Position numbers and translations under genes: made by a program. Under the pieces are notes generated by a model. That model was not told the origin of the DNA. It did not search any database and worked only from the letters and a program-made list of their open reading frames with translations. A stretch of 64,000 nucleotides of DNA from Candidatus Nitrospira nitrificans (GTDB taxonomy: Bacteria > Nitrospirota > Nitrospiria > Nitrospirales > Nitrospiraceae), in NCBI RefSeq assembly GCF_001458775.1, contig NZ_CZPZ01000008.1, positions 1 through 64,000 of the forward strand, written 5' to 3'. Of this stretch, positions 2,714-48,654 are shown piece after piece; the stretch's first letter is position 1, and each line of letters begins with the position of its first letter.

Positions 2714-5032
2714 TTAAACTGCTACTCGCCCCTCGCTGACAGCGTAATCCAACATATAGCTTGGGAGAGAATTTGATGCCACGCCATTGAGAATCACATG
2801 GATGGGTCTGTCTGCGCGCAGTGATCCTATCGCCTGTTTGACGGCTTGCTTGGAAGTCAGGTTGGCTCTTACGACAAGAAGGAGAAAATCGCAATGACTT
2901 TCCAGCACATTCATCGTAGCTACCGGAAGAATTGGCGGGGCATTTATGAGGACATAGTCAAATTCCTCTCGCAATTGTGACAAGACACGATTGAGTTGAC
3001 CAGCCCGTAATAGGTCGTTCGAGTCAGCTACAGCTTCGCCGGCCGGCATAATCCAGCATGGGACATCAGTGAAAGCACTCATGGCCTGCTGCACCGGAAT
3101 GTCACTTCGGAGACAATCAATAAGCCCATATCGTACCGGTGATTCTAGGAAGGCCCTCAATTCCGGATAGACAAAGTCACAATCCAGCACGAGTACACGC
3201 CTACCAAAATCTCGCGACAGAGTATACCCGAGATTAATGACGGTCGTGGTTTTCCCTTCGCCTTTGATGGCACTCGTCACAGCAACAACCATCGATCCCC
3301 CGGTCGCATTGAGCAACTGCAATCTCGCCGCAGCCACACGATACTGTTCAGCAGCCATAGAGCGAGGGAACAGCTTCGCAACAAATCTCCGGTCGATCTC
3401 GTGCGAACTCGACCGTTCGGCTAGCGGTTGGTTGTTCGGTGCGATCTCCGACTGAGACCTCATGGTCAGTCCCAATGAAGGTCTTGGCAGAGCAGGTGCC
3501 TGGAAATACCCCGAGGTGCTGGCCGTACGCCACAGCGATGAAAAATCAGGGATGGCTGCCAGCAGTCGAGGGCCTGCGAGCAGAAATTCTACATCTTCTG
3601 CGCTTCGGAACTGAGGAGTGAGGTGTTCACGCAAGAGAGACAACCCTGTCCCTAAAACACACCCGAATAGGAACCCCAGTACTAAAACCCTTGGCTTGTT
3701 TGGAATAACCGGCTCCCGCGGCAAAGTGGCGCGATCCAGTATGCGATACTTTCCGCCCTTCTGCCGTTTTCCGATGTTTTCTTCAACCCGTGTATGCAAC
3801 CGCTTATCAAGGAGCATCGCGTAATTGCTCTTCAAATTGTTGTAGTCTCGTTCGAGAACGAGCAACTCCTGTTCAACGGCAGGCGACCTATCGAGACGTC
3901 TTTCAAGATCTCTCTTGGTAGTGCGCAGTTGGTCTAGACGTTGGCGGAGAAGAGCTATCTCGGTTCGCTCTTCGCTCTGCTGTTTCAACAGATCCTGAAG
4001 GACCGGGTCCAGCGGCGTCGTTTTGTCCACCCGAAGCGCATCCGGACCATATACATTCGTCAACTCCTCTTCAGTTTGCCGAATTTCCTCCTTCGTTAAG
4101 ATGATCTCGGGATATCCATCCCAAAATTCAGCTCTGAGTTTGACGAGCTTCTCTCGGAGTTCCTTTAGGTGCCGAAATAGTGGATCGGGTTCCATCGAGC
4201 GTGTGGTTCCACTCCTAAAATTCGACTGTCCGGTCGTACGATACAGGTGAACCTCTTGATTCAGCGTGCCAAGTTTGTCGGAGTGACGCTGAAGACTCTC
4301 GTTCGTGGCGGCGATCTCTGCTTCTACTCGATCCAAGGCCCGAAGGTTTGTGTCCGTCTGCTGAGGAAGGTTACCGAGATGAGACTTCTTGAAGTTACTG
4401 ATGTTTTCCTCTCTCTTCTCCAGCTCGCGTTTCATCAATCGAAGTTCTTCTTCGAGAAACTCGCCCGTGCCCTCGATCTCTTTCTCACGCTCACTGTTAT
4501 TCTCCTCAATGAATTTGTCTGCGATTCGGGCAGTCACCTGCCTGGCCGCTTGTGGGTCCCGATCCAGAAAGGAGACCACAAAGCCATCAACCAAGTTCTG
4601 CAAACCTTTTCCGCCGGCTGGGTCGATCATGGCCCGCTCAACCTTCGTCATGCCTGCCAACTCAATCCAACTCGCTACCTCACCTTGGCCATTAGATCCA
4701 TCCCGGCGCAGACTGAGTTCCTTTGCTATCACCTCCAAGAAATCTTGACTGATAATTTGTTTCTGAATAAGAAAGAGCTGCCTCTCGAAATGTTCATCCG
4801 CTCTTTCTCCCTTATTGATAACTTGATCGATCCCCTTGCGTTCTTCCACCACGATCAGCGTCTGTGATTGATAGTATTGAGGAGCAATCAGCAAATACCC
4901 GATGGCCAAGGTCAAAGAAAAAGCTATCGCACCCGCAATAACCCACTTGTTGCGTGATGCGATGAGTGCATACTCGCGAACGGAAGCCATCCCTGTTTGT
5001 TCTACTGAGGCGGTTGACTCAGGATATTGCAT
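2714..5032 (-). CDS. Wzz/BY-kinase-like polysaccharide copolymerase (Wzc-type)
   Basis: This 772-residue inner-membrane protein should control polysaccharide chain length and assembly. A first membrane segment lies near residues 30-55, a long periplasmic coiled-coil region spans about 170-420, and a second membrane segment lies around 440-460 just after an NKPR-type proline-rich motif. The C-terminal cytoplasmic kinase domain begins near 580 with a Walker A motif IKGEGKTTT and a Walker A' motif VLVLDCDF. The Walker B position reads DYVLINAPP, with Asn where an Asp is expected, and the C-terminus (SYMLDYAVSEGRVAV) lacks a tyrosine cluster. Kinase activity may therefore be weak or absent. The start at 5032 is preceded by GGAGGG with 5-nt spacing. 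It follows the initiating-transferase fusion gene. Confidence 0.9.
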   Translation of the reverse strand: MQYPESTASVEQTGMASVREYALIASRNKWVIAGAIAFSLTLAIGYLLIAPQYYQSQTLIVVEERKGIDQVINKGERADEHFERQLFLIQKQIISQDFLEVIAKELSLRRDGSNGQGEVASWIELAGMTKVERAMIDPAGGKGLQNLVDGFVVSFLDRDPQAARQVTARIADKFIEENNSEREKEIEGTGEFLEEELRLMKRELEKREENISNFKKSHLGNLPQQTDTNLRALDRVEAEIAATNESLQRHSDKLGTLNQEVHLYRTTGQSNFRSGTTRSMEPDPLFRHLKELREKLVKLRAEFWDGYPEIILTKEEIRQTEEELTNVYGPDALRVDKTTPLDPVLQDLLKQQSEERTEIALLRQRLDQLRTTKRDLERRLDRSPAVEQELLVLERDYNNLKSNYAMLLDKRLHTRVEENIGKRQKGGKYRILDRATLPREPVIPNKPRVLVLGFLFGCVLGTGLSLLREHLTPQFRSAEDVEFLLAGPRLLAAIPDFSSLWRTASTSGYFQAPALPRPSLGLTMRSQSEIAPNNQPLAERSSSHEIDRRFVAKLFPRSMAAEQYRVAAARLQLLNATGGSMVVAVTSAIKGEGKTTTVINLGYTLSRDFGRRVLVLDCDFVYPELRAFLESPVRYGLIDCLRSDIPVQQAMSAFTDVPCWIMPAGEAVADSNDLLRAGQLNRVLSQLREEFDYVLINAPPILPVATMNVLESHCDFLLLVVRANLTSKQAVKQAIGSLRADRPIHVILNGVASNSLPSYMLDYAVSEGRVAV

Positions 5033-5124: not shown

Positions 5125-7656
5125 TTACAAGGTACTAACCGGCAATGCCGAAGACTCCGGATCTGAGACGCAGGTTTGGAACATCGGAACGATCTCTTTG
5201 AGTCGTTCGAGTAATACACCGGCCGCATCGCCATAACTTGCAGCCTCCAAACCAGACAGCTTTTCTCGAAACTCTTCGAAGTTGAGTTGGCTTACTGTCC
5301 GGATCTGCAAGATTTTCTCCAAGGATGATCGCACGGCAACCTCTCCCTCACCGACTAATTCCTCATACAGCTTTTCCCCAGGACGGAGTCCGACGAATCG
5401 AATAGGAATATCCTTCCCCGGATTGAGCCCGGACAATCGTATCAGACTCCGAGCAATATCAAGGACTTTGATTTGCTCTCCCATATCCAGGATATAAATG
5501 TGGCCTTGCTCGCCGATGGTTGCCGCCTGAAGCACCAACTGAACTGCTTCAGGGATCAGCATAAAGTATCGTCGGATCTCCGGGTGTGTAACAGTGACGG
5601 GTCCACCGGCCCTGATTTGTTCCTGGAATCGCAGCAACACACTGCCACTGCTCCCAAGAACATTGCCAAAGCGTACCAGAAGGAAGCGAGTCCGACTAGT
5701 CCTTGCAATATCCTGGATAACAAGTTCAGCTACTCGTTTGGTAGCTCCCATCACGCTTGATGGATTGACCGCTTTATCAGTCGAAATATGCACGAATTGC
5801 TCGACCCCGTAGAGGCTCGCGGCTTCAGCCGTTACACGTGTGCCGATGCAGTTATTCTTCACGGCCTCCATGGGATTCAGCTCCACGAGAGGCACATGCT
5901 TGTGCGCTGCCGCATGAAACAAGATCTGTGGTTTATACTCTTCCAGCACCGAACAGAGCCGCTGGGCATCGGTCACATCACCAATCAACGGGACAACGGG
6001 GAAAACAAGTCTTCGATCATCTAATTCTTTATGAATGTTGTACAAACTGTTCTCATGTCGCTCATAGAGCAAGAGCACTTTGGGCTCGAACAAGGCAATT
6101 TGACGAGCCAATTCCGACCCAATCGACCCGCCGGCACCGGTAATCAGCACACACTTGCCCCTAACCATCTGTCTCGTCGCTTCCTTGTCAAGATCAATGG
6201 GAGCTCTTGACAAAAGGTCCGGGATCGAAACATTGCGGATCTGACTGACGGCACTTTGGTCCGTGAGAAGTTCCTCCTTGGCGGGCAAGGTTTTGATTGA
6301 TATGTTATACGGCTCCAATGTGATAACGAGGTCTCGCAGAAACTCAGGAGTCGCATTCGGTTCCGCAACCACCACTACTTCCGGTTTGAGCCCTTCTACA
6401 AGCTTGGGAAGATCCCGCACTGTGCCCAACACTCTGACTCCATGGATGCGCTGATTAAGAAGACCAGCGTTATCGTCGACAAATCCGATCGGCTGACAGT
6501 TGAATATCGTTCGAGTTTTCATCTCCCGAACGACGCGTTCGCCTGAGTCTCCAGCGCCGACGACCAAAACTCTCCGCTTTTTCTGAAAAATCGGTTTATC
6601 ACGAAGAACGCGAGCGGGCAATCTCACTCCGGCCAGAAGGCCGATGAGCAGGATGGCATCTATGGCAAATATAGAACGCGGGTAACTATAAATCCCCATC
6701 ACCCAATGAACCCAGCCATAAAATACGACCGTACTTGTTAAGACCCCCCCTATAATATTTTGGAGATCCCACAGACTCGTATACCTCCACAAACCTTCGT
6801 TCAGGCCAAACAAGGCAAACGCTACTCCTCGAATGGCCACCAGCGCGAGTACTGTTTGCTCGAAGGTGTGAAGCTCCCCATCGGGGATGCTCCCATCATA
6901 TCTCAGGGCGAATGCAAAGTAGTTTGCCAGAAGGATCAAACCCACATCAAGAACGACAACAATTGGTTTTCGCCACCTCATAATAAAGGACGACAGACTC
7001 GTCCAAGGAGAGGCCAGGGAAGGCTCGACAGCGGCCTTTAGTTCAGGATGTGTGAAAACTACTACCGGAAGCCCAGCAATATGCAGCAATGTTTGTATGA
7101 TAATGGCGAGATCGAGGCGCAAAGACATATGCCGGATATAGAACTTTGCCAATCGAAGCTTTTCCGGAAGAACTTTAAGCTGATATTCTTCTTCGGGATT
7201 TGATGAATACGCGAGGATCGACGCCTCATCGATATATCTCAACGAGGCCAAGTCTGTAATCCCAGGACGGACCGTGAGCACTTCAGAAAACTCAGAACGT
7301 AGGCGTTCAACATAACGCGGGACTTCCGGCCTTGGGCCGACAAAGCTCATATCACCGACGAGAACATTCCATAGCTGGGGCAGTTCATCGAGCTTGCATT
7401 TCCGTAGTATTCGACCGATTCTCGTAATGCGAGAATCTTGTCCTACTGTAAGAGGCAAGCCGGAACCAGGAGCATCCACAGCCATGGTTCTGAATTTCTG
7501 TATGGCGAAGGGACGAAACCCCTGTCCTACTCGAATCTGACGAAAGATCACCGGGCCCTGAGAATCCAGCTTGATCAATACGGAAATGATCGCCAGCAGT
7601 GGCGCCGTAAACACCAACCCCAGGGCGGCCATGCAGACGTCAAATGTGCGTTTCAT
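5125..7656 (-). CDS. Fusion: initiating phosphoglycosyl transferase (PglC-like) + nucleotide-sugar 4,6-dehydratase (WbpM/FlaA1-like)
   Basis: This 843-residue protein joins two activities that are normally separate. Residues 1-205 form a bacterial sugar transferase (WcaJ/PglC class): a membrane hairpin near 10-30, the catalytic Asp90-Glu91 in KLDELPQLW, and the GDMSFVGPRP motif. It would transfer a phosphosugar to undecaprenyl phosphate. The rest is a WbpM/PglF-type UDP-GlcNAc 4,6-dehydratase: about four membrane segments (225-345), a first Rossmann motif VVGAGDSGERVV, then the SDR domain with ITGAGGSIGSE, HISTDKAVNPSSVMGATKR (Met replaces the usual catalytic Tyr, as in this family) and RPGEKLYEEL. 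The ATG at 7656 overlaps the upstream aminotransferase stop as TGATG, so the two are coupled. A GTG one codon upstream is also possible. Confidence 0.92.
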   Translation of the reverse strand: MKRTFDVCMAALGLVFTAPLLAIISVLIKLDSQGPVIFRQIRVGQGFRPFAIQKFRTMAVDAPGSGLPLTVGQDSRITRIGRILRKCKLDELPQLWNVLVGDMSFVGPRPEVPRYVERLRSEFSEVLTVRPGITDLASLRYIDEASILAYSSNPEEEYQLKVLPEKLRLAKFYIRHMSLRLDLAIIIQTLLHIAGLPVVVFTHPELKAAVEPSLASPWTSLSSFIMRWRKPIVVVLDVGLILLANYFAFALRYDGSIPDGELHTFEQTVLALVAIRGVAFALFGLNEGLWRYTSLWDLQNIIGGVLTSTVVFYGWVHWVMGIYSYPRSIFAIDAILLIGLLAGVRLPARVLRDKPIFQKKRRVLVVGAGDSGERVVREMKTRTIFNCQPIGFVDDNAGLLNQRIHGVRVLGTVRDLPKLVEGLKPEVVVVAEPNATPEFLRDLVITLEPYNISIKTLPAKEELLTDQSAVSQIRNVSIPDLLSRAPIDLDKEATRQMVRGKCVLITGAGGSIGSELARQIALFEPKVLLLYERHENSLYNIHKELDDRRLVFPVVPLIGDVTDAQRLCSVLEEYKPQILFHAAAHKHVPLVELNPMEAVKNNCIGTRVTAEAASLYGVEQFVHISTDKAVNPSSVMGATKRVAELVIQDIARTSRTRFLLVRFGNVLGSSGSVLLRFQEQIRAGGPVTVTHPEIRRYFMLIPEAVQLVLQAATIGEQGHIYILDMGEQIKVLDIARSLIRLSGLNPGKDIPIRFVGLRPGEKLYEELVGEGEVAVRSSLEKILQIRTVSQLNFEEFREKLSGLEAASYGDAAGVLLERLKEIVPMFQTCVSDPESSALPVSTL

Positions 7657-8813
7657 CACCGGCGGTTCCTCTTGATAAGCTCACGAACGGTCTCAATCAC
7701 ACGATTGACCTCGCCCTCCGTCATCTTCGAGTACAACGGCAATGAAACGATCCGTTCGAATGCTCTGCTAGCAACGGGGAAATCCTCAGGTCGGTAGCCT
7801 CCCCTGTCCCGATGATAGGGATGCAAATGGAGGGGAATAAAGTGCACGCTGCAGCCGATACCGGCTTGTTGCAGTTGCCGGATGAATTCATCGCGACCGA
7901 TCTGCAAACGATCCAGATTCAACTGAATGACGTACAGATGCCATGCATGCTGTACATGGGACGCGGCTGGAGGACACATTATCTCGGGGAGATCGTGAAA
8001 ACCTTCCTGATACAGAGTGGTATAGTGTTCGCGTCCTTTCCAAAAACGTTCACACTTCTTCAATTGAGCCAAACCAAGCGCCGCGGCGATATCCGTCAGA
8101 TTGTACTTAAAACCAGGCGAGAGTATTTCGTAATACCACGAACCTTGCGCAGAGTAGCGATTCCACGCATCTCGACTGAGACCATGCAAACTCATCATCC
8201 GCATGCGAGCCGCCCATTCGGCGTTATTCGTGGTAACCATTCCGCCTTCGCCTGTGGTGATATTCTTCGTCGCGTAGAATGAAAAACACGTGGCATCAGA
8301 GATCCCGCCGATCATTTTGCCATGATATCGAGCCGGCAAAGCATGGGCGGCATCTTCGATCACGTATAGATTATGATTCTGTGCGATCGTGTGAATGGGT
8401 TTCAGGTCGCACGGATGCCCAGCAAAATGGACAGGAATGATCGCTTTCGTTTTATCTGTGATGGCCTGTTGGATACAATCCGTGTTTAGATTCAGCGTGT
8501 CCGGCATGCAATCGATCAGAACTGGTCGAGCTTTGAAGTAGGTCACCACCTCAGCCGTTGCGGCAAAGGTCATTGTCGGGACCAGCACTTCATCCCCCTC
8601 GCTCACACCAGCTGCTTCAAGGGCAAGATGGAGGGCGGCCGTACAGGAATTAACTGCGACAGCGTGCTCAGCTCCAACCATTGCGGCAAATTCCCGCTCA
8701 AATTCCCGCACCTTGGGCCCCGTTGTCAACCAACCAGAGCGAAGTACCTCCACTACTTCTGATACTTCTTCTTCGCCAACATCAGACCTATGAAAAGGCA
8801 AAAATTCTTTCAT
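7656..8813 (-). CDS. DegT/DnrJ/EryC1/StrS-family PLP aminotransferase (PseC/PglE-like)
   Basis: This 385-residue cytosolic sugar aminotransferase carries the PLP lysine in FYATKNITTGEGG (Lys183), the EDAAHA motif at about 153-158 and the GWLTTGPKV segment typical of PseC/PglE/ArnB-type enzymes. Those enzymes aminate a 4-keto-6-deoxy nucleotide sugar, exactly the product expected from the dehydratase half of the gene overlapping its 3' end, so the pair probably makes a UDP-4-amino-4,6-dideoxy-sugar that the PglC-like half then loads onto lipid. The start ATG at 8813 has AGGAG with good spacing. The exact sugar configuration cannot be read from the sequence. Confidence 0.92.
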   Translation of the reverse strand: MKEFLPFHRSDVGEEEVSEVVEVLRSGWLTTGPKVREFEREFAAMVGAEHAVAVNSCTAALHLALEAAGVSEGDEVLVPTMTFAATAEVVTYFKARPVLIDCMPDTLNLNTDCIQQAITDKTKAIIPVHFAGHPCDLKPIHTIAQNHNLYVIEDAAHALPARYHGKMIGGISDATCFSFYATKNITTGEGGMVTTNNAEWAARMRMMSLHGLSRDAWNRYSAQGSWYYEILSPGFKYNLTDIAAALGLAQLKKCERFWKGREHYTTLYQEGFHDLPEIMCPPAASHVQHAWHLYVIQLNLDRLQIGRDEFIRQLQQAGIGCSVHFIPLHLHPYHRDRGGYRPEDFPVASRAFERIVSLPLYSKMTEGEVNRVIETVRELIKRNRR

Positions 8814-9195
8814 TCACAGATCTCCTCTTCGGCTAACAAACATGCCCGCCCAGAGCTCTACTTTCCCATAATTCCGGAAAAGCACAACCCACCTTTGGAG
8901 GGGCCATGAAGCTGTATCTGTTGAAGAAAAATACCCCAAGGATCAAATGAGATCAATCCTACAACATTAGAAGGCTCAAGGCTATTGAGGAATATTGAAT
9001 TAGAGTTTTATAATCTCTAAGGGTTGATGTGGCTAAGCGGAGCCACCTTCAGGAAGAACAGATCACCATAGAGTTTCTCTGCCCTGATTACAAATTGTAT
9101 CGCCATGGGACTGCCGTCGATTGCCAGAAGATTCTCTATTTAAAACATATATTTACATGAGAAAGCTTACGGGGTTTTATTCAGCTAGATTGCAG
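8814..9195. other. Intergenic region upstream of the aminotransferase gene
   Basis: This AT-richer stretch may hold the promoter for the aminotransferase and dehydratase-fusion operon, but no convincing -35/-10 pair was identified. No gene or RNA was recognised. Confidence 0.4.
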
Positions 9196-9375
9196 TATTT
9201 CGACGTGCTTTCTTGTAAATAGGCAATCCGGGCTGAACTGGTGGCATTGCGTAGTGTTCTGCAAGAAATCCATGGAGGCTGGAAGGAGATGCAGACCGAT
9301 CTCGATGCCTAGCTGGCGGAGTACAATCAGCAGCGGCCGCATGAGGGGCGCTAAGGTGCAGGGTGACATCTTGAC
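9196..9375 (+). pseudogene. IS481/IS3-like integrase-core C-terminal remnant
   Basis: The plus strand reads EIHGGWKEMQTDLDA, a stop, LAEYNQQRPHEGR and another stop. This is the characteristic end of IS481-type transposases (xLQxDLDxWLxxYNxxRPHqGr). Two stops interrupt about 40 codons and no upstream catalytic domain is left. Confidence 0.6.
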
Positions 9376-9439
9376 CTATACAAATGATCGTGCGCACAGC
9401 CTTATCGTTTCCACTTCATCAAACACGTTGCGTCCATGA

Positions 9440-10384
9440 TCAACTGCGCCCACGAGTATTGGCAATCTTGTGCCATATCCATCGAGCTTCAAGAGCACTC
9501 CGCTCCTTCTGAGTAATAACGTAATGACCACGCGCGCGCAGAATGTAATCCAATAGAGTGTTGACCGGAACAAACCATCCGTTCATTTTGCTCAATCGTT
9601 CCATGAGCATCTTAAAACGCTCATTGAGCCTGCCGTTTTCAAGAAATCTGGAGGCAAAATGGGTGTACATAATGCACGCCCCACCTTCCATCGCCAATCT
9701 GTCCTGACTTGCCTCGCTTACTGTCACATTGAACGAGTCGACATTCGCCCCTTCCGAGGAGGCAAACCAGTAATTGACGAATGGGCGCGCAGCATCATGA
9801 TAAGGCATTACCGGGCAAGCCTTGAACGTATTCACGTCTCCAAATACAAAATTCCTGACATACTTGGTTTTCTCTCGGCAGAGATCGCCCCAGAACAGCG
9901 GACTTCCTTCAATGTGGCCTTGGGACACGTTGTTATTCCCGCTCCTCTTCAGATTCAACGTATTATAGATAAGCCGGCGAACACCAGAAACACGGGCGCT
10001 ACCCCAATAAATATTTTCTCGGCAACCAGTATGATTCGCTACCGAATAGGGATCATGCCCGAACAGCTGCCGAAATCTCTCGAGCCCACGAGAGGTCTGC
10101 TCTCGAGTGGACGTATGATATGTAGCGTTATGAAACCCGATTTCGAATCCCTGCTCCTTTAGACCAAGGACCGACTTAAGATAGCGCTCGTCTTCACACG
10201 TGGTCCCACCCACCTTAGGTATGTCGTCTCCTCGGATAGGCCAGACCGCCTTCGTCGTGCGGAGACCGAGATCACGAAGAAAAGAATACACAACCTCCAA
10301 CGTCTCAACCGAATCCCCATCAGGATCGTCGAAGATAGTAAACGCAAAATCTTTTCCCTCTGGCCAATCAATCTTTTGGATCAT
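9440..10384 (-). CDS. NodB-like polysaccharide deacetylase-family protein
   Basis: This 314-residue protein is a divergent carbohydrate esterase family 4 (NodB-fold) protein. The metal-binding Asp lies in FTIFDDPDGD (residues 15-24) and the two metal-ligand histidines are in IGFHNATYH (His85 and His90). There is no signal peptide, so it would act in the cytoplasm on a lipid-linked intermediate or nucleotide sugar, or be held at the membrane. It sits between two DegT-family aminotransferase genes in a region of amino-sugar synthesis. Deacetylation of an N-acetylated residue is the inferred role. The ATG at 10384 follows an AGGTGG-like site. The N-terminal motif is unlike the canonical TFDDG, so activity on a different acyl group is possible. 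Confidence 0.75.
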   Translation of the reverse strand: MIQKIDWPEGKDFAFTIFDDPDGDSVETLEVVYSFLRDLGLRTTKAVWPIRGDDIPKVGGTTCEDERYLKSVLGLKEQGFEIGFHNATYHTSTREQTSRGLERFRQLFGHDPYSVANHTGCRENIYWGSARVSGVRRLIYNTLNLKRSGNNNVSQGHIEGSPLFWGDLCREKTKYVRNFVFGDVNTFKACPVMPYHDAARPFVNYWFASSEGANVDSFNVTVSEASQDRLAMEGGACIMYTHFASRFLENGRLNERFKMLMERLSKMNGWFVPVNTLLDYILRARGHYVITQKERSALEARWIWHKIANTRGRS

Positions 10385-10492: not shown

Positions 10493-11629
10493 CTACCTGT
10501 AGAACGCTGTTATCGCCTCCACCACCTCGGTCTGTTGTTCGCCAGTCAGCTCGGGATAGATGGGAACCGCGACAGTCTCCTTGGCTGCGCGCTCCGACTC
10601 AGGAAAGTCTCCCTCCCGGTAACCTAAGTAGGAAAAACATTCTTGCAGATGGAACGGGACCGGATAGTAAATTTCCGCCCCGATTCCTTTCTGCTTCAAA
10701 TGGGTCATGAGGGCATCTCGCTGCTCAACTCTGAGCACAAATTGGTTATAAATGTGGTAGTGCTTCGCGCCCGAGTTGCGATAGACAGGCTCTGGCAATT
10801 TCACTTTCCCCTTCTGCATGAGGCCGCTCTGCTTAAACAAGCTCTCGTACCGACTGGCGTTCTCCTGCCGTCTTTTGGTCCACCCATCAAGGTAGTTGAG
10901 CTTGACGTTTAGAACTGCGGCCTGAATCGTATCGAGACGGAAGTTCCCTCCAATTCGCTTGTGATAATACTTGGGCTTGCTGCCATGGACTCGCAGGACT
11001 CGCATCCGCTCGGCGAGATCAGGATCGTTGGTCACGACCATTCCGCCATCGCCCAAGCATCCAAGATTCTTGCTCGGAAAAAACGACAGGCAGCCGATGG
11101 TTCCAATGCTGCAGGCTCGTCGCCCGTCGCCATATTCCGAACCAATGGCTTGGGCCGCATCCTCGATGACGCTCAGACTGTGCTGCTTGGCCACATCCAT
11201 AATCGGGGCCATATCGGCGCATTGTCCGTAAAGATGGACCGGAATAATCGCCTTGCTGTTGGCCGTCAGCGCCGACTTAATTTTTGCAGGATCGAGGTTA
11301 TAGGTGACGGGATCAATGTCTACAAGCACCGGTTTAGCGCCCAGTCGCACGACTGCTCCGGCCGTGGCAAAGAAGGAATACGGCGTGGTGAGGACCTCAT
11401 CACCGGGGCCGATACCGAGAGCCATGAGGGCGACCAGCAGGGCGTCGGTCCCGGAGCTCACGCCGATACCATACGTCGTCTGGCAATAGACAGCGACTCG
11501 TTCCTCCAACTTACCGACATCCGGACCGAGAATAAAGGCTTGGCTCCGGAACGTCCGCTCCAACGCCGCCATGATTTCCTGCTGGAGCGGTTCGTGATGC
11601 GCTTTCAAATCAAGTAATGGAACACCCAT
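10493..11629 (-). CDS. DegT-family sugar aminotransferase (WbpE-like)
   Basis: This 378-residue PLP enzyme has its Schiff-base lysine in [14 protein letters not shown] (Lys187), EDAAQAIG at about 156-163 and the N-terminal PLLDLKAHH motif typical of WbpE/WlbC and QdtB/FdtB-type enzymes. It lies 14 bp downstream of a WbpB-WbpD-like fusion gene, and in Pseudomonas WbpB and WbpE act as a pair to replace the 3-hydroxyl of UDP-GlcNAcA with an amine. The same role is proposed here. The start ATG at 11629 has AGGAG 8 nt upstream. No WbpA (UDP-GlcNAc 6-dehydrogenase) or WbpI (2-epimerase) is in the window, so the substrate must come from elsewhere. Confidence 0.92.
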
Positions 11630-11643
11630 GAAGATCTCCTTTC

Positions 11644-13242
11644 CTAAACTGCCGTCATTCCGGTACGTTCGACGCGGTATTGTTGCCCACAGGTCGGACA
11701 GGCGGCTTTCTTACCCTTGACGCGGAGTTTCACCCCGCACAGACACATCCAACCTGTCACCCGTCCGGGATTGCCTACTACGAGTGCGTGATCCGGCACG
11801 TCCTTGGTCACCACCGTTCCTGCACCGACGAATGCATATCGCCCGATTGTAATCCCGCACAAAATGGTTGAATTGGCCCCCAGTGTGGTTCCTCGTTTTA
11901 CAAGCGTCTGCCGCAGCTCGTTCATACGAGGAATCTCGCTTCGAGGATTAAACACGTTTGTAAATACCATTGATGGCCCGCAGAAGACATGGTCTTCAAG
12001 TGTGACGCCTTCATATACGGACACGTTATTTTGAATTTTGACTCCATGGCCCACGGTAACACGGGGACCGACGACAACATTCTGCCCGATTTTGCAGTTC
12101 TTCCCGATACGCGATCCTTTGAGGATATGAGACGTGTGCCAAATACTCGTTCCCTCGCCTATTTCCACCGCTTCGTCAACGAAGGCCGATTCATGGGCAA
12201 AGTAATGTCTATCTGGCTTCGAGGCAGCTGTTGTCCTGGGCTGACCGGACTTCTGTTCCAGCGCCTCTTGGCATCGCTGCAACACGGACAGTACCCGCAA
12301 CCCTTCCTCCCCGTCCGTTCTCGGCTTGGTGCGCGTTGCCACACAGTCCAGGAAATGCAGGCATTCAGCTCGCAGGGGCTCTCCCTGTTCCAGTTCAACA
12401 GTCTGGGCGTCCGCTTTGTTCGCGATTGGGAGATTGTCCTTCCAGTCGATGGAATGAGGATAGAGAAACAGCTTGTCCTTTTTCTCCAGATCGTCGAACA
12501 CCGCCATCTTTCGGTCGCCTACCACGATCAGTTTCTGTTCCTTGAAGGGATGCAGCCAGGAAACGAAGATATGGGCCTTCACTCCACTTGGGAACGACAG
12601 CAGACTGATAGTCACGTCGGCGATATGCTGATGGAGGTAGTTCCCACCTTGGGCGAGGACTCCATCGGGAGTTTCATTGAGCAGCCCCAGGATGACGGAG
12701 ATATCGTGGGGCGCAAAGCTCCAGAGAATATTCTCTTCCCGGCGGATCTTACCCAGATTCAATCGGTTTGAATAGATGTACTGAATGTGGCCCAATTCTC
12801 CCGTCCGGATCAATTCCTTCAGTTTCAGCACGGCAGGGTGATACCAGAGGAGATGTCCGACCATGAGAATGCGATTATTCTTCTTAGCCAAGGCAACGAG
12901 CTCGGCGCCCTCGTGGACTGACAGACAGAGCGGCTTCTCTACAAAGACGTCTTTACCGGCCAGCAAGGCCTCCCGTACCGAATCTGCGTGTCCCTCGGCT
13001 GGTGTGGCAATTGCCACGGCCTCTATCGTCTCATCACACAGCACCTCCGAATAGGCTCGGACCAGCTTCACACCTGGATGCTGCGTGCCAAACGACGCTA
13101 ACCGTTCGGCATCATTGTCACAGATGGCAGCGAGCGCTCCCAAGCCGGCAAAGTTACGCACCAGGTTCTTCCCCCAATAGCCGGCTCCCACGACAGCCAC
13201 GTGAACCTTGCGATGTTCACGTTGATCAGATTCATTACTCAT
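11644..13242 (-). CDS. Fusion: Gfo/Idh/MocA oxidoreductase (WbpB-like) + hexapeptide N-acetyltransferase (WbpD-like)
   Basis: This 532-residue protein fuses two consecutive steps of UDP-GlcNAc(3NAc)A synthesis. Residues 10-330 are an NAD-dependent Gfo/Idh/MocA dehydrogenase: [17 protein letters not shown] near the N-terminus, EKPLCLS in the middle of the Rossmann domain and the VGHLLWYHP segment. Residues 350-500 are a left-handed beta-helix acetyltransferase with hexapeptide repeats ([43 protein letters not shown]). The C-terminus is a small zinc ribbon with CLC and CPTC pairs. The start at 13242 is chosen because a GGGGGGAG site precedes it; an in-frame start 48 bp upstream lacks one. The DegT gene downstream supplies the intervening transamination. 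Confidence 0.92.
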
Positions 13243-13327
13243 CACATCTCCCCCCCTCTCCCAACGCATAAACCGTCTTAGACCACTCAAACGCTGTCCG
13301 GCTTCCTAAAGACTCGGTCGGCGAATT

Positions 13328-18095: not shown

Positions 18096-18342
18096 ATGAC
18101 CGCTGAAACTGACTTTCCTCGGCACATTCTTGAACCGGCGTCCCCGGCACACAGACGGCGAAAGAACTGCACGTTCCGCAGGGAACGCCGTGTTTCGGCT
18201 GGTGACAGAACCATAATTTTTCGAGGACCTCAATAAATCCGTGCTTTCTGGCAAGATCTTGCATCTGCGTTTTGGAGCATTCAAGAAGCGGGAACTCGAA
18301 TCGAGCGAAGAGTTGTTCATCGCCGAGGATCACTGAATTGTA
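18096..18342 (-). pseudogene. PP-loop (QueC-like) protein C-terminal remnant
   Basis: The minus strand encodes NSVILGDEQLFARFEFPLL, then KTQMQDLARKHGFIEVLEKL and WFCHQPKHGVPCGTCSSFAV, and after a frameshift GRRFKNVPRKVSFSGH. The WFCHxP...PCGxC pattern and preceding helix match the C-terminus of 7-cyano-7-deazaguanine synthase-like PP-loop proteins found in some glycan loci. The ATP-binding N-terminus is absent. The 5' edge coincides with the 3' end of the beta-helix gene, whose last codons (TALQFSDPRR) read the same DNA in another frame. Confidence 0.55.
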
Positions 18343-19588
18343 ATGCCGTCGGTGCAGAGGGCTCTTGCCTGTTACCATCGGCACTAAATTCATAGGCGCC
18401 GATATCGTAGGTGTGTCCTCGAGGTCGAGGAGTCCCATCGAACGATGTTCTGATCGCAGCAAGGAGCAACCCCGCATCAATGGCCGGGCTTCGTTGGGTC
18501 AGGGCGAAGTTCGGCGACGCCGGAAGTGTGGCTGGAGCATTAACGAATGCTGGTGCACTGACGTTGATGATATTATTAGCTTGAATGTAGTGCACGCCTT
18601 CAGTCGCACCAGATCCAAAGGCCGCCGTACCCCCGCTACCGCTGGCGTAGAAGAGATTATTCCTAACCACTACCCCAGTACAAGTGGTGGAAGTGAAGTG
18701 CACTCCTTGTGTCGCATCCGAATTTGTGGCTGCATTCTCATAGAAAATGTTGTTCTCAATCCGTGCGTTGTTACAGGAAAAGCCCCACACAACCAGGCCA
18801 GCCCCTCTGCGGTTGTAGGCGAGTGTGTTGTTGGCAATCAGCCAATTCTCTGATACTGCGTATTCCGGCCCTGGGTCAGTGGTAGGGTTGTACGTTGAGC
18901 TTGCCGTGGACCCATTGAGTTGAATGCCGAAAGTCAGGTTATCGTAAATGATGTTATTCGTGACTGTGACGGCTGTCCCATGGAAATAGATGCCATGGCC
19001 TCCCGGCCGACAGGGAGATGTGCCAGCCTCACACCCCTCAATATTGGCATTGTGGTTGATGATGTTCCGATCAAACAGCACCCTGGTACCATTCCCAAGA
19101 ATTCCGCTTCCAGGTTTATTGTGGTGAATCCAATTTCGCTGAATGGTGAGGTCATGACCGCTGATGATCTTGATCCCATTGTAGCAATTCCGGATCTCAA
19201 ACCCCTCAACTGTGATCCAGCCCATGGGATTCAAAGGACCAGACGGATGTTGAATAAGAATCCTATGAAGTTTTGACGCGTCAATACAATCGATGATTGG
19301 CGATTCGCCCGGAGCATTGCGAAGCTTAATGGGCGCCAACTGGGTACCAGACTTTCCGAAGCGGATGATCTCTTCTTTGTAGGTTCCACCCCGGACATAG
19401 GTCGTATCCCCTGCGACCATGATGGCGACCGCATAGGCGACCGTCCGCCACGGTTGTGTTTCTGTGCCAGGATTGCCGTCACTGCCGGTCGTGGCGACAT
19501 AGTAGGTCGCTGCAGGAGCCCCCACGTCTTGCAAGAGGATACTGCTAAAAATGCAGACACCGATTATTGCTTGGTTGAATCGATCCAT
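18317..19588 (-). CDS. Secreted right-handed parallel beta-helix protein (copy 2)
   Basis: This 423-residue protein has a signal peptide (residues 1-26, core AIIGVCIFSSILL, cleavage near APA), then AATYYVATTGSDGNPG and Asn-rich beta-helix coils, with SPAIDAGLLLA and IGAYEFSADG near the end. The ATG at 19588 has AGGAG 9 nt upstream. Nucleotides 18675-19519 are nearly identical to 27019-27863 in copy 3, while the parts outside this block differ clearly. The last codons appear to come from a fused PP-loop gene remnant. Function in glycan binding or modification is inferred from fold and location only. Confidence 0.85.
   Translation of the reverse strand: MDRFNQAIIGVCIFSSILLQDVGAPAATYYVATTGSDGNPGTETQPWRTVAYAVAIMVAGDTTYVRGGTYKEEIIRFGKSGTQLAPIKLRNAPGESPIIDCIDASKLHRILIQHPSGPLNPMGWITVEGFEIRNCYNGIKIISGHDLTIQRNWIHHNKPGSGILGNGTRVLFDRNIINHNANIEGCEAGTSPCRPGGHGIYFHGTAVTVTNNIIYDNLTFGIQLNGSTASSTYNPTTDPGPEYAVSENWLIANNTLAYNRRGAGLVVWGFSCNNARIENNIFYENAATNSDATQGVHFTSTTCTGVVVRNNLFYASGSGGTAAFGSGATEGVHYIQANNIINVSAPAFVNAPATLPASPNFALTQRSPAIDAGLLLAAIRTSFDGTPRPRGHTYDIGAYEFSADGNRQEPSAPTALQFSDPRR
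18675..19519. repeat. 845-bp direct repeat, copy 1 (pairs with 27019-27863)
   Basis: Aligned by eye at a constant offset of 8344 with no gaps, this block differs from 27019-27863 at about 9 positions. The first 444 bp (18675-19118) show no difference. Both copies are in the same orientation inside beta-helix genes. Confidence 0.9.
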
Positions 19589-26654: not shown

Positions 26655-27992
26655 CTATTTATCCAGCTTGTGACAAGACTTCTCAGGATGCCGTTGGCCA
26701 TCAGGCGGTCGCGCATCATCTCCCCCTGTGTATTCGTAGGCGCCAATATCAAAAGCGCATCCTTGGGGTCGGAGAATACCGTCGAATGCTTTTTTCGTTA
26801 TGGCAAGGGACAGACCTGCGTCAATAGCCGGGCTTCCAGCAGTTAAGGAAAAATTTGGCCAGGCCGGAAGTGTGGCTGGAGCATTGACGAATCGTGGGTT
26901 CATTGTATTTATGATGTTACCGGATTGTGTGTAATGAACCCACTCAAGAGCTCCCTTTCCAAACGCAAGCACGCCACCAGATCCACTCGCATAAAAGATG
27001 TTGTTCCTAATTCTGGCTCCAGTACAAGTGGTGGAAGTGAAGTGCACTCCTTGTGTCGCATCCGAATTTGTGGCTGCATTCTCATAGAAAATGTTGTTCT
27101 CAATCCGTGCGTTGTTACAGGAAAAGCCCCACACAACCAGGCCAGCCCCTCTGCGGTTGTAGGCGAGTGTGTTGTTGGCAATCAGCCAATTCTCTGATAC
27201 TGCGTATTCCGGCCCTGGGTCAGTGGTAGGGTTGTACGTTGAGCTTGCCGTGGACCCATTGAGTTGAATGCCGAAAGTCAGGTTATCGTAAATGATGTTA
27301 TTCGTGACTGTGACGGCTGTCCCATGGAAATAGATGCCATGGCCTCCCGGCCGACAGGGAGATGTGCCAGCCTCACACCCCTCAATATTGGCATTGTGGT
27401 TGATGATGTTCCGATCAAACAGCACCCTGGTACCATTCCCAAGAATTCCGCTTCCAGGTTTACTGTGGTGAATCCAATTTCGCTGAATGGTGAGGTCATG
27501 ACCGCTGATGATCTTGATCCCCTCGTAGCAATTCCGGATCTCAAACCCCTCAACTGTGATCCAGCCCATGGGATTTAAAGGACCAGACGGATGTTCTATA
27601 AGAATCCTATGAAGTTTTGACGCGTCAATACAATCGATGATTGGCGATTCGCCCGGAGCATTGCGAAGCTTAATGGGCGCCAACTGGGTACCAGACTTTC
27701 CGAAGCGGATGATCTCTTCTTTGTAGGTTCCACCCCGGACATAGGTCGTATCCCCTGCGACCATGATAGCGACCGCATAGGCGACCGTCCGCCACGGTTG
27801 TGTTTCTGTGCCAGGATTGCTGTCACTGCCGGTCATGGCGACATAGTAGGTCGCTGCAGGAGCAGCAATGGTCGGCAGGGGGGCACCAGCAAACTCACCA
27901 GTACATGTGAACATGCAGGCACTGATACATGCAAGCATGCAAGCACTGAATGCTCGCTTGACTCGAAATTGGAGATTCGGGTGTCGGAACAT
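26655..27992 (-). CDS. Secreted right-handed parallel beta-helix protein (copy 3)
   Basis: This 445-residue protein is a paralogue of those at 16567 and 18317. The start is placed at ATG 27992, giving an N-terminus with basic residues (RHPNLQFRVKR) and a hydrophobic, Cys-rich core (AFSACMLACISACMF) typical of a signal peptide; the open frame extends to a TTG at 28127 with a long hydrophilic segment that fits an export signal less well. The mature part begins AATYYVAMTGSDSNPG and ends with SPAIDAGLSLA and IGAYEYTGG. The middle is nearly identical to copy 2 at DNA level. It follows the ATP-grasp gene at 28128. Confidence 0.82.
   Translation of the reverse strand: MFRHPNLQFRVKRAFSACMLACISACMFTCTGEFAGAPLPTIAAPAATYYVAMTGSDSNPGTETQPWRTVAYAVAIMVAGDTTYVRGGTYKEEIIRFGKSGTQLAPIKLRNAPGESPIIDCIDASKLHRILIEHPSGPLNPMGWITVEGFEIRNCYEGIKIISGHDLTIQRNWIHHSKPGSGILGNGTRVLFDRNIINHNANIEGCEAGTSPCRPGGHGIYFHGTAVTVTNNIIYDNLTFGIQLNGSTASSTYNPTTDPGPEYAVSENWLIANNTLAYNRRGAGLVVWGFSCNNARIENNIFYENAATNSDATQGVHFTSTTCTGARIRNNIFYASGSGGVLAFGKGALEWVHYTQSGNIINTMNPRFVNAPATLPAWPNFSLTAGSPAIDAGLSLAITKKAFDGILRPQGCAFDIGAYEYTGGDDARPPDGQRHPEKSCHKLDK
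27019..27863. repeat. 845-bp direct repeat, copy 2 (pairs with 18675-19519)
   Basis: This is the partner of the block at 18675-19519, with a constant offset of 8344, no gaps and about 9 differences counted by eye. The break from near-identity to clear divergence at both edges is abrupt. Confidence 0.9.
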
Positions 27993-28127
27993 TCCAATCT
28001 TACCAGCCTGGCATCTAGCTGCTGACGTATTAAAGAATGGAGCGAGCTGCATCTGTACGGACGAGGTCTCGCGTTCATTCTCCTGCAAATCAGCACTCAC
28101 TGACAACCATTTCTTAGTATAATTCAA

Positions 28128-30378: not shown

Positions 30379-32238
30379 TCACTTCGATATGGGTTGAAGG
30401 AATTGGCGAGCCCAAGATTCGTAAATTGCCAAGCGGAACAATAAATTTTGCCGAGAAAGAAACGGATCTCCTCCGTCGCGTTGATTGAGTAGCCGACGGA
30501 CGCCCTCTAAATCAACAAGATCGGCAAGAAAACGGGGGGCATGTAAGGTATCTCTCAGCCAGTCCGCCAAAGGTCCTTTTAGCCATGCCGTTTCAGGAGT
30601 CTCAAAGCCCAATTTGCTCTTACGGTGACGCACCAAGTCGGGAAGCACACCAGCAAGTCCATCTCGGAGTATGCACTTGGTCCACCCGGCGGAGAGACGC
30701 ATATCGGCCGGAAGAGTTGCCAACCATTCAACGAAAATATGATCTACAAACGGCACACGTGATTCGATTCCAAACGCCATCGTATTGCGGTCTTCCTGTC
30801 TAAGCAGAATTGGCAGACTATATCTCGTCAAGTCCGCCCCTAGTCGGCGCCCTAACGAATTTCCAATTCCCAACGTTGCTGGACGAAGCATTTGAACCTT
30901 ATTGTGCCGAAGTTGATCAAACTCCGGTACCGAACCGAATAAATAGCGGCGGCCATCGGCCAGACGACTCGTGCGCAAAATTTCAGGGCTCCCAAAGAAG
31001 GCAATGGTTTCTCTTATAGCTAGACCGAATCGCCTTGATTTGAGGAGCTGTCCAATATAGGCAAGAATGTATTTTCGGTATCCAGCAAGCTGCTCATCGG
31101 CTCCCTGACCATCTAGCAACACCTTGACCCCTTGTTCTCTTGCTAGGCGGGCAACGCAATATTGTGCATACGCGCTGGAACTTCCAACAGGCTCCTCTTG
31201 ATGCCATAGCCACCGATCGATATCTTCCAGCATCCGTTCGCCGGTTGGAAAAACAAAGTGAGTCTTGCAGCAGGTAGCCGTAGCAACCGATTCGATGTAC
31301 CGTCGTTCATCAAGGCGGGGATCGTCAAAACATGCACTAAAAGTATGTTGAAGGTTTTCTCCTGAAACTCCTCGACGATGTAGTTCTGCGTTGACCACAC
31401 AGGCGATTGCCGAGGAATCCAGACCACCACTCAGGCAAGTGCCAACCGGCACATCAGATCGAAGATGTAGGGCCACAGTCTCCTCAAATCGGAGACGGAA
31501 TTCATCAATCAACTTCGTCTTTCGTTCGGGCGCAGTTTCTAGATCCTCACTGATTGAGACCTGCCAGTACCGCCACAGTCGCAAACCAGCACCCTTTTGC
31601 CACGTCATCGCATGCCCCGGCGGCAACCGCTTGATTCCTGTCACCATCGTGTCCGCGGCCTCGTGGTCGAGAAGATTCCAGGCTAGAAATTCCGTGGCCA
31701 ACTGTAGGTTGGCGCTGCGCTGCGGCAGAAATTCTAGAAGTGCTTTAAGCTCAGATGCAAAGGCAAATTTCGTGTCTTCATCCACGCAGTAATGAAAAGG
31801 CTTGATTCCAAGACGGTCCCGAGCGGCAAAAAGACATCCGGTCCGTTCGTCCCAGATGGCAAACGCAAACATACCCCTGAGACGGTCTAAACATTTCTCT
31901 CCCCACTGACAGTATGCGGCCAAGAGTACCTCGGTATCGGACCGCCCTTTGAAGCGGAATCCAAGGTTGCGTAATTCCGTCCCCAACTCTAAGTAATTAT
32001 AGATTTCTCCGTTGTACGTGATCCAATAGCGGCCTTCGCGATCAGCCATTGGCTGGTGTCCCGCTTCAGTCAGATCAATGACCGACAACCTGCAATGACC
32101 AAGCGAAGCACCATTACCGTCGTAGAATCCTTCTCCGTCAGGCCCTCGATGCCGTTGCGAGGAAATCATTCGCCGCACTGCTAACTCGGCGGATTGAGGG
32201 GAAACTCCCTGATATACCAATCCAGCTATGCCACACAT
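30379..32238 (-). CDS. asnB: Asparagine synthase (glutamine-hydrolysing), AsnB-type amidotransferase 1
   Basis: This 619-residue protein has a complete class II glutamine amidotransferase domain: Cys2 in MCGIAGLVYQ, the RHRGPDGEG loop, YNGEIYNYLEL and RSDTEVLLAA. It is followed by a synthetase domain with the PP-loop CLSGGLDSSAIACVV. In Pseudomonas O-antigen loci an AsnB relative (WbpS) amidates a uronic acid carboxyl group, and a similar glycan role is inferred here rather than asparagine supply. It starts at ATG 32238, 16 bp after the upstream methyltransferase stop. A second full homologue is at 43674 and a degenerate one at 47069. Confidence 0.92.
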   Translation of the reverse strand: MCGIAGLVYQGVSPQSAELAVRRMISSQRHRGPDGEGFYDGNGASLGHCRLSVIDLTEAGHQPMADREGRYWITYNGEIYNYLELGTELRNLGFRFKGRSDTEVLLAAYCQWGEKCLDRLRGMFAFAIWDERTGCLFAARDRLGIKPFHYCVDEDTKFAFASELKALLEFLPQRSANLQLATEFLAWNLLDHEAADTMVTGIKRLPPGHAMTWQKGAGLRLWRYWQVSISEDLETAPERKTKLIDEFRLRFEETVALHLRSDVPVGTCLSGGLDSSAIACVVNAELHRRGVSGENLQHTFSACFDDPRLDERRYIESVATATCCKTHFVFPTGERMLEDIDRWLWHQEEPVGSSSAYAQYCVARLAREQGVKVLLDGQGADEQLAGYRKYILAYIGQLLKSRRFGLAIRETIAFFGSPEILRTSRLADGRRYLFGSVPEFDQLRHNKVQMLRPATLGIGNSLGRRLGADLTRYSLPILLRQEDRNTMAFGIESRVPFVDHIFVEWLATLPADMRLSAGWTKCILRDGLAGVLPDLVRHRKSKLGFETPETAWLKGPLADWLRDTLHAPRFLADLVDLEGVRRLLNQRDGGDPFLSRQNLLFRLAIYESWARQFLQPISK

Positions 32239-34010: not shown

Positions 34011-35366
34011 CTATCCTTTGCTTTGGCTTCTGTTAATGACAAGGCGGTGTTTACCAGAGGGGGGCACTTCAAAGTTTCCTAACTCAAAGTATATTTTCAT
34101 GTCTTCCCCAAGATATCTTCTGAGGACCGTTGTAAGTGTGTCCCTCATCAGAGGTGTAAGGATGTTGTCACCAGACAATAAATAATGGAAAATAATCTTG
34201 TCTCTTTCAACTTGTACCAACTGATATTTCCAGATCGGCACTTCAGTTGCAAACACATTACCCGAAGCTACTATTCCAGTGACCGTATGCCCATCTGTCG
34301 CTATTAACTGATCTGGAACTCGACCCTCTAGTTTGGAAATCTTTAAGCGTCTGCTCTCACAGTGCGATCTGGCTAACTCGAGAACATCGCCGTTAAGATA
34401 CCGAATCAATGGCATGGCATAGTTAAATAGCGTGGTGACACAAGCTGGACCTCGCCCCTGATCTTGGAATTTGGTCGAGCCCTCAGCCATAGCAACTTCC
34501 AAAATCACAAACTCTTCTGAGACAATGTACCCATTAACATTCGAACATTCATACGCGATACTGTTCACCTCTCCACACCCATAGTAGCAAAACACTGGAG
34601 CATCTAGCACTTGGCTAATGCGCTTACGCCATTCGTCAGGCAACTGGTCCGCAGTGCAGATCACGCTTTTCAGTGGACTTCCTTGCAATCCACTCCTGGA
34701 CATGTATTCGACAAGATTCATCATGGCTGATGCATATCCCACTAATACACCACCTCTTGCGTCTCGAATCGTATCGACATAAAAGTTCACATTTTCCTGA
34801 TTTAATTCGAATGCTGGAAGGAAGCGTTCATTGAGCAATAGGTCCCTTATCTTGTCTCTCAGATTTGGCTTGCCTTTTTTCCTGAGTGATCCTCCGAAGA
34901 GACCAACCATGGGATTCCCTAACTGATAATTCATCCATTCGAATCCCCTCAGATAGGCCGCAACCTCAAATGCACGTCCCCGATCATCCACGGCAATCTT
35001 GATAGGCTCACCCGTTGTTCCCCCGCTGCGTCGAAATTGACAGATCTTATCAGGGTAGTTATCTGCACGTAGCCGTGCCCCCTGTTCACGCATCGTTTCG
35101 CGAGTGAGATACGGCAGTTTAGCCAGATCGTTAATCGATCGAAAATCCTCTGGCCGTAAATCCCTTGCTCCCATCAGGTCTCGATAATAGGGAACATGAT
35201 CGTAGCAGTGACGCATCAAAACGCTTAGTGACCTCTCCTGATGGAATTTCATCTCTTTGGAAGTCCATTTTTGGGAATCGCGAAGTAGCTTCGCAGCCCT
35301 TCCAAGGGGGACCCCCAGGTAGGCACTGAGGGGTATCCCCGATCTCAACAACCAGCGCCTTAGCAT
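34011..35366 (-). CDS. CapK-like AMP-dependent ligase (phenylacetate-CoA ligase family)
   Basis: This 451-residue cytosolic protein belongs to the CapK/PaaK branch of adenylate-forming enzymes. The phosphate-binding motif RRSGGTTGEPIKI is near residues 109-121, with YYGCGEVNSIAYEC near 270 and the ADP-type motif NYAMPLIRYLNGDVLEL near 330. CapK proteins are common in capsule loci and are thought to activate a carboxylic acid as acyl-adenylate for transfer, though substrates are rarely known. The start is placed at ATG 35366 because GAGGAG precedes it; the TTG 24 bp upstream was rejected. It lies between IS3 end copy B and a GT4 gene. Confidence 0.85.
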   Translation of the reverse strand: MLRRWLLRSGIPLSAYLGVPLGRAAKLLRDSQKWTSKEMKFHQERSLSVLMRHCYDHVPYYRDLMGARDLRPEDFRSINDLAKLPYLTRETMREQGARLRADNYPDKICQFRRSGGTTGEPIKIAVDDRGRAFEVAAYLRGFEWMNYQLGNPMVGLFGGSLRKKGKPNLRDKIRDLLLNERFLPAFELNQENVNFYVDTIRDARGGVLVGYASAMMNLVEYMSRSGLQGSPLKSVICTADQLPDEWRKRISQVLDAPVFCYYGCGEVNSIAYECSNVNGYIVSEEFVILEVAMAEGSTKFQDQGRGPACVTTLFNYAMPLIRYLNGDVLELARSHCESRRLKISKLEGRVPDQLIATDGHTVTGIVASGNVFATEVPIWKYQLVQVERDKIIFHYLLSGDNILTPLMRDTLTTVLRRYLGEDMKIYFELGNFEVPPSGKHRLVINRSQSKG

Positions 35367-35576
35367 CCAGCCCCTCTCCTCATTATCCAAGCCATGCCCT
35401 CATTCGAAAACTTAAGCAGCTGTAGGTTCCTGAAAGACTCTGCAATTAACCTTAAAACCCCACAACTGGTTCCACTTTCAGGTCGGCATTACCCTTTCTC
35501 CGTGATAACTCACAGACCATCAAATGGATCTAAAGTACCGCTATAATGCAGCAATCTAAAACGGACGGGATAGCCC

Positions 35577-48589: not shown

Positions 48590-48654
48590 CTGCCCCTCCA
48601 CCCCGTTCCAGCGATAATGTACGCATGCTTGTCCCTCTGACACTCAGCAGTAGG

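Follow-up and report, generated by a model that had tools for sequence, protein, structure and literature searches.

A phosphoglycosyl transferase fused to a PglF-type dehydratase in a Nitrospira polysaccharide cluster, and its dyad-less relatives

The fused gene and its surroundings

The window, that is, the whole stretch of 64,000 nucleotides from Candidatus Nitrospira nitrificans analysed in this study, carries a minus-strand gene in which a monotopic phosphoglycosyl transferase (PGT) is joined to a membrane-bound 4,6-dehydratase. An aminotransferase gene lies directly upstream of it and a chain-length gene directly downstream.

5125..7656, minus: 843-aa ORF of the PGT-dehydratase fusion, from the ATG at 7656 to the stop at 5127-5125
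7081..7653, minus: monotopic PGT catalytic domain, residues 2-192 (Pfam Bac_transf, E 7.7e-58)
7384..7389, minus: catalytic dyad D90-E91 of the PGT half, aligned with the DE of C. concisus PglC
6973..7077, minus: linker, residues 194-228, with pLDDT below 50 at residues 197-219
6601..6972, minus: predicted membrane bundle of four long helices (residues 229-252, 259-282, 295-319 and 327-352; AlphaFold model)
6289..6576, minus: Rossmann-like DUF (CoA_binding_3), about residues 361-456 (Pfam and model)
5302..6150, minus: SDR 4,6-dehydratase domain, residues 503-785 (Pfam Polysacc_synt_2, E 3.1e-113; PglF match)
5773..5781, minus: dehydratase T626-D627-K628, equivalent to PglF T395-D396-K397
5749-5751, minus: dehydratase M636, equivalent to PglF M405
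7656..8813, minus: DegT/DnrJ aminotransferase, 385 aa, directly upstream of the fusion (ORF and Pfam)
7654..7658, minus: TGATG overlap of the aminotransferase TGA (7658-7656) and the fusion ATG (7656-7654), sharing one base
2714..5032, minus: Wzz/Wzc-like chain-length and tyrosine-kinase protein, directly downstream (Pfam/NCBIfam)

The order within the fusion is thus PGT-4TM-DUF-dehydratase, and the 4TM-DUF portion belongs to the dehydratase half. The Pfam CoA_binding_3 match covers residues 300-453 (E 7.1e-6), C. concisus PglC (8e37) aligns with residues 1-140 (E 7.4e-25), and the top Foldseek match of the AlphaFold model is C. jejuni PglF. A first helix is predicted at residues 2-31. The model has a mean pLDDT of 80.3 and a pTM of 0.55, which makes its placement of the domains relative to each other unreliable. 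An alternative GTG start at 7659 would give a fusion of 844 aa. The first-pass annotation, which gave no strand, had described one 843-residue ORF containing a complete PGT with Asp90-Glu91 and a complete membrane-bound 4,6-dehydratase, with an aminotransferase gene overlapping it by TGATG; each of these points holds, the PGT by its Pfam match and alignment to PglC, and the dehydratase by Pfam, the PglF alignment and the four-helix bundle.

The available text of one paper names the DE dyad, the DX12P motif and a substrate-orienting Lys and Arg as the key residues of monotopic PGTs (PMC12802240). By sequence, the fusion possesses the dyad, the DX12P re-entrant-helix motif and the Lys/Arg residues, as D6/P19, K54, R85, D90, E91 and R109 (the PRP Arg) match the PglC residues in the 8e37 alignment; the PRP Arg of PglC is numbered R111 in that paper and 112 by our count (PMC12802240). 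The dehydratase half has the features of the PglF/WbpM type, namely an N-terminal 4-TM bundle plus DUF and an SDR domain with T-D-K and with Met replacing Tyr, and T626, D627, K628 and M636 are invariant across 22 aligned fusion sequences (alignment A1). The name WbpM/FlaA1-like, given in the first-pass annotation, is apt as far as it denotes the membrane PglF/WbpM type, with PglF as the best solved relative. Its FlaA1 part is loose: FlaA1, the same enzyme as PseB, is of the soluble inverting type, and the inverting PseB/FlaA1 assignment was rejected, since TIGR03589 scored 174.4 bits against a cut-off of 407.75.

Selection was estimated by the Nei-Gojobori method, comparing the window fusion with 10 members of the genus; saturated dS left 9 of 10 comparisons usable for the PGT, linker, TM region and dehydratase, and 7 of 10 for the DUF. 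Over these comparisons dN/dS was 0.05-0.10 in the PGT half, 0.03-0.05 in the dehydratase, 0.05-0.13 in the TM region and 0.03-0.07 in the DUF, with the linker as the least constrained part (0.11-0.62). Both halves of the window fusion are constrained by strong purifying selection and the linker is loose; as far as sequence can tell, both halves look functional.

Large monotopic PGTs such as WbaP and WcaJ combine the same types of module (4-TM bundle, CoA_binding_3 DUF and PGT), but in the order 4TM-DUF-PGT and with no dehydratase, whereas the order here is PGT-4TM-DUF-dehydratase. Membership of the fusion in that class was rejected on domain order, and the WcaJ and WbaP models fell below their cut-offs. 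The NCBIfam large-PGT model TIGR03025 was passed by 0.05 bits (295.6 against 295.55), in two separate stretches, and this marginal pass is a likely source of misnaming. In annotation, such fusions can exceed the cut-off of the large-PGT model since they contain its modules, only differently arranged.

Between the aminotransferase (8813) and the next gene at 9440 there is no ORF longer than 70 aa, and hence no acetyltransferase gene in that interval. That next gene (9440-10384, minus, 314 aa) lies between two aminotransferases and has no Pfam or NCBIfam match at E 0.001. The second DegT aminotransferase, at 10493-11629, stands beside a gene encoding a Gfo/Idh/MocA oxidoreductase fused to a hexapeptide acetyltransferase (11644-13290, minus; Pfam). 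Together these two genes look like a 3-amino-sugar module, which we take to resemble WlbA/WlbB. In five members of another family, f16, the aminotransferase adjoins the fusion, and immediately upstream of the pair all five carry a second aminotransferase and an oxidoreductase-hexapeptide gene, the arrangement found in the window. Other parts of the window encode glycosyltransferases, a Wzy_C-type protein and ABC transporters, indicating that the cassette belongs to a polysaccharide cluster. The cluster also includes two ORFs with no Pfam match (34011-35390, minus, 459 aa; 47069-48643, minus, 524 aa), two asparagine-synthase-like amidotransferase genes (30379-32238 and 43674-45551, minus) and two beta-helix proteins (18317-19588 and 26655-28127).

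Distribution and origin of the fusion

A sample of 395 genomes from the phylum contains at least 63 in which PGT and dehydratase share one frame: 26 of the same genus (one partial), 12 others of the family, 3 others of the order, 7 others of the class and 15 others of the phylum. Within the genus, 25 of 54 genomes carry a full or near-full fusion (that of G320 begins at residue 53), and four more carry a partial one (G065, G099, G149 and G191, of which G149 is the partial 26th). Outside the phylum, fusions were found in two of 80 named loci (L055 and L117) among the matches listed, these loci being taken from the species genomes as the best 80 of 592 relatives; two further loci, L056 and L130, end at a contig edge before a fused or unfused state shows, and in the trees they carry the label unfused. 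In many of the other named loci among the matches listed, PGT and dehydratase are encoded by neighbouring separate genes, and the fusion looked rare outside the phylum in this sample of listed matches. A pattern search of viral contigs gave one match and no relative. Four dehydratases with long N-terminal stretches (L068, L100, L103 and L115) were checked as possible fusions and have no PGT domain, and G312, considered as a loss of the PGT half, was rejected as such since its frame extends to the locus end.

The layout had been thought unusual in the first-pass annotation. Given at least 63 genomes, and given published bifunctional PGTs, this view is not supported. The available text of an eLife paper defines bifunctional monotopic PGTs (Bi-PGT), with a second domain N- or C-terminal to the monoPGT core, and discusses the 4TM-DUF common to large PGTs and PglF-like dehydratases (PMC10942596); that of an mBio paper states that small monoPGTs may bear sugar-modifying and receiver domains (PMC12802240). 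The window protein agrees with the Bi-PGT class in having a monoPGT core with a functional domain at one end. O'Toole 2021 (PNAS) is said to list dehydratase fusions in particular, and we assume it to be reference 13 of the mBio paper, cited there on the add-on domains of small monoPGTs. The fusion type is thus already described in general form in the eLife and mBio papers, as Bi-PGTs and as sugar-modifying domains, and the exact pair of PGT and PglF-type dehydratase would be among those of O'Toole 2021. Wide occurrence as a known family, which the first-pass annotation had named as grounds against its own reading, is to that extent largely the situation found.

Gene order around the fusion is conserved. 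All 26 genus fusions examined, that of the window among them, are followed by the Wzz/Wzc-like gene, as are 11 of the 12 other family fusions, the twelfth having only 197 nt of flank. For wider counts we used 70 distinct fusions: those of the at least 63 phylum genomes, those of five genomes of families f7 and f10, and L055 and L117. Fifty-seven of these keep the DE dyad, and 51 of the 57 have a complete aminotransferase gene no more than 250 nt upstream, all 38 genus and family fusions among them. Counted apart from the 51 is L036 (G189), where a 94-aa aminotransferase C-terminal frame stands beside the fusion, either a broken gene or an assembly frameshift. Dyad-intact fusions with no adjacent aminotransferase are L039, L042, L048 and L117, with sufficient flank, and L038, with a short flank. 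The aminotransferase beside L044 is only 31% identical to that of the window.

Several relatives differ in architecture. Receiver (REC) domains are appended at the C-termini of L038 and L044 and a PilZ domain at that of L046, suggesting control by phosphorylation or c-di-GMP in these relatives; the window protein has neither add-on. Fusions of family f30 (L177, L178, L180, L181 and L182; L148 and L155 are copies of L177 and L178) have about 60-70 extra residues between DUF and dehydratase, and a c-di-GMP-binding MshEN identity for this insert was unsupported by Pfam in the two inserts tested, for which no match reached the cut-off (best match DUF4388, E 0.011). In two members of the order, L037 (G300) and G250 (L160/L184), the frame is broken between DUF and dehydratase, reflecting a pseudogene, a split gene or an assembly error.

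The PGT and dehydratase trees were built by a quick method and do not give the direction of change; some of their "unfused" rows are fusions that are broken or run off a contig (L037, L183 and L184), and one locus appears twice, as L154 and L179. The window fusion sits in an order-wide group in both trees, which in the dehydratase tree has support 98 and comprises 22 fused rows plus 2 whose frames are broken. In L141 and L147, which rank with the closest unfused relatives on either tree, the PGT and dehydratase genes lie side by side, and in L047, L059, L064 (TAA, then ATG), L066, L069 and L094 the pair is one in-frame stop apart. Stop loss between neighbouring genes would be the simplest route to the fusion. 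A single origin is unsupported, as the fused/unfused state requires 9 changes on the PGT tree and 8 on the dehydratase tree. At least five of the changes are forced by starred branches in each, suggesting that the fusion formed, or was undone, repeatedly. The window genome also has a second, unfused dehydratase (L002), which the dehydratase tree joins to two Nitrospira sp. loci with support 100. The dehydratase of L058, a locus titled "Nitrosospira sp.", clusters with those of L141 and L147, which belong to the window's phylum, and L058 is probably mislabelled or misbinned.

Fusions lacking the catalytic dyad

The DE dyad is absent from 13 of the 70 distinct fusions, all of which keep the dehydratase. 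The dyad counts were made by alignment, which places D-E in L011, L033, L045, L117 and L180; an apparent dyad loss in the Fibrobacteria fusion L117 was rejected on this basis (KLDELPQL). The dyad is replaced by DR in L043, L194, L195 and L196, DQ in L049, NK in L050 and L053, ER in L051, DT in L052, DL in L187, DA in L189 and DV in L055, and, separately, by YE in L046. A sister lineage in the same phylum, made up of families f7, f10 and f12 plus one MAG labelled Flavobacteriales, has lost the Glu in 12 of 13 aligned members (L042 keeps it) and the Asp as well in three, and K54, R85 or the PRP Arg is also altered in several. The trees include eight of the 13, which form a single starred group on either tree.

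An aminotransferase within 250 nt was found for none of the 13 dyad-less fusions (flanks are short in L046, L055 and L189), against 51 of 57 dyad-intact ones, and since the genomes are related, these and the dyad counts are not independent events. L043 has an aminotransferase of 34% identity at about 1 kb, the gene next to L049 and L053 encodes class-I tRNA-synthetase (valyl-type) domains, and that next to L051 is dabA. Ten genomes were searched for other copies, nine with dyad-less fusions (including G064, of another family) and the dyad-keeping G290. All ten hold other PGT genes, and at E 1e-40 the search found no full-length membrane dehydratase in any of them besides the fused chain, the further dehydratase matches being frames of 326-379 aa.

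From these substitutions, the PGT half is predicted to be dead in the sister lineage. Its fold seems to persist: the L053 PGT domain is predicted to be PglC-like (mean pLDDT 71; Foldseek E 2.2e-11, TM 0.69), and NxLKGxMS-GP-P columns are invariant. End branches of the dyad-less fusions measure about 0.5-0.9 in the PGT tree against about 0.1-0.4 in the dehydratase tree, which fits relaxed constraint on the dyad-less PGT. Decay and a new, non-catalytic role are both possible.

Proposed role and its alternatives

We consider it likely that the fusion and the aminotransferase make and load the first 4-amino-sugar, probably FucNAc4N, and that the fusion came about by stop loss and gives equal dosage at the membrane. 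The C-terminal PglF/WbpM-type half would convert UDP-GlcNAc to a 4-keto-6-deoxy sugar nucleotide, the separate upstream aminotransferase (7656-8813) would add an amino group at C4, and the N-terminal PGT half would move the amino-sugar-1-phosphate onto undecaprenyl phosphate. The product may be the first lipid-linked sugar of an exported polysaccharide made by the surrounding cluster, and the sugar most likely would be FucNAc4N (2-acetamido-4-amino-2,4,6-trideoxygalactose). A stop codon lost between two neighbouring genes may have created the fusion, and its main benefit may be that the enzymes of the first and the last step are supplied one to one at the membrane. What is observed, and what this role builds on, is the domain order, the intact catalytic residues, the selection and the conserved gene order.

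The sugar assignment draws on two FucNAc4N cassettes. In the available text on H. parainfluenzae, the aminotransferase, PGT and dehydratase have consecutive locus tags (PARA_02760, PARA_02750 (WcfS) and PARA_02740), FucNAc4N is reported as the first sugar, and deletion of wcfS in strain 20 abolished the O-antigen (PMC3989065). The S. sonnei plasmid matches show the three genes in the order seen in the window; the aminotransferase is 50.9% identical and the matched part of PGT plus dehydratase 45.5%, and the aminotransferase match stops 25 bases before the PGT-dehydratase match; this cassette is presumably WbgX-WbgY-WbgZ. In both species the order aminotransferase-PGT-dehydratase is the same as in the window, although PGT and dehydratase are separate genes there and joined here. 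This match in gene order and identity is why FucNAc4N is favoured over bacillosamine. The stereochemistry at C4 is not fixed by the sequence, because the closest solved relatives of the aminotransferase are ArnB and the PseC model TIGR03588 scores below its cut-off (404.5 against 423.5).

The first sugar might instead be di-N-acetylbacillosamine, made in the manner of PglFED-PglC or EpsCNM-EpsL with the help of an acetyltransferase encoded elsewhere. The best solved relatives of the two halves, C. jejuni PglF (5bju) and C. concisus PglC (8e37), are each homologous to one half with catalytic residues kept and belong to that pathway, and a hexapeptide acetyltransferase domain is encoded nearby, fused to the oxidoreductase (11644-13290). 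PglF and PglC are separate proteins in a pathway that includes an acetyltransferase. No acetyltransferase, however, adjoins the cassette (interval 8813-9440). The nearby one, joined to a Gfo/Idh dehydrogenase and accompanied by the second aminotransferase, would better fit a 3-amino sugar, and gene order and identity point to the FucNAc4N cassette; we therefore regard this alternative as unlikely. True substrate channelling, in which intermediates pass between active sites with the aminotransferase docked on the fusion, had been suggested from the layout, and the retention of the fusion with an adjacent aminotransferase gene across the genus, the family and further lineages is in line with it. 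The two fused enzymes are not consecutive, however, and the strict form is weakened because the separate aminotransferase must act between them. The linker, moreover, is the least constrained region and has low model confidence, and other bacteria encode the same enzymes by separate genes. Channelling seems to us rather improbable, and membrane co-localisation of the fused enzymes is the safer wording. PglB of N. gonorrhoeae, a PGT-acetyltransferase fusion, likewise joins a PGT to an enzyme that makes the sugar donor it uses, but there the partner acts directly before the PGT and here two steps before.

Nor is the fused state alone proof of a working PGT half, given the sister lineage in which that half is predicted to be dead. 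The window PGT half might then be mainly a scaffold or regulator of its dehydratase, as suspected for the dyad-less lineage, and both the 13 dyad losses and the PglC-like fold predicted for L053 could be read that way. The window lineage, however, keeps the dyad and its partner residues at low dN/dS, with an aminotransferase adjacent in every genus and family fusion, and we think such a reading very unlikely here. That the join is an assembly or sequencing artefact is hardly conceivable: nothing points to false joining, the two same-order relatives noted above show broken frames instead, and the same frame recurs throughout the at least 63 genomes, single-contig assemblies (G145 and G202 among others) included. 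A missed stop or frameshift between the domains, which the first-pass annotation had wanted checked, is accordingly not found.

In the sister lineage, the fused PGT may be a pseudo-enzyme on a working dehydratase, acting as membrane anchor, UDP-sugar/UMP sensor or scaffold, with regulation or placement as the selected property, in the window as well; we offer this tentatively and hold it to be the less probable outcome. A narrow literature search found no report of a dead fused PGT, and novelty is not established. If the idea is true, the scaffold would tie sugar-nucleotide supply to transfer by other PGTs. The dyad-less fusions are a natural experiment on what use a PGT domain has to a dehydratase after losing sugar transfer.
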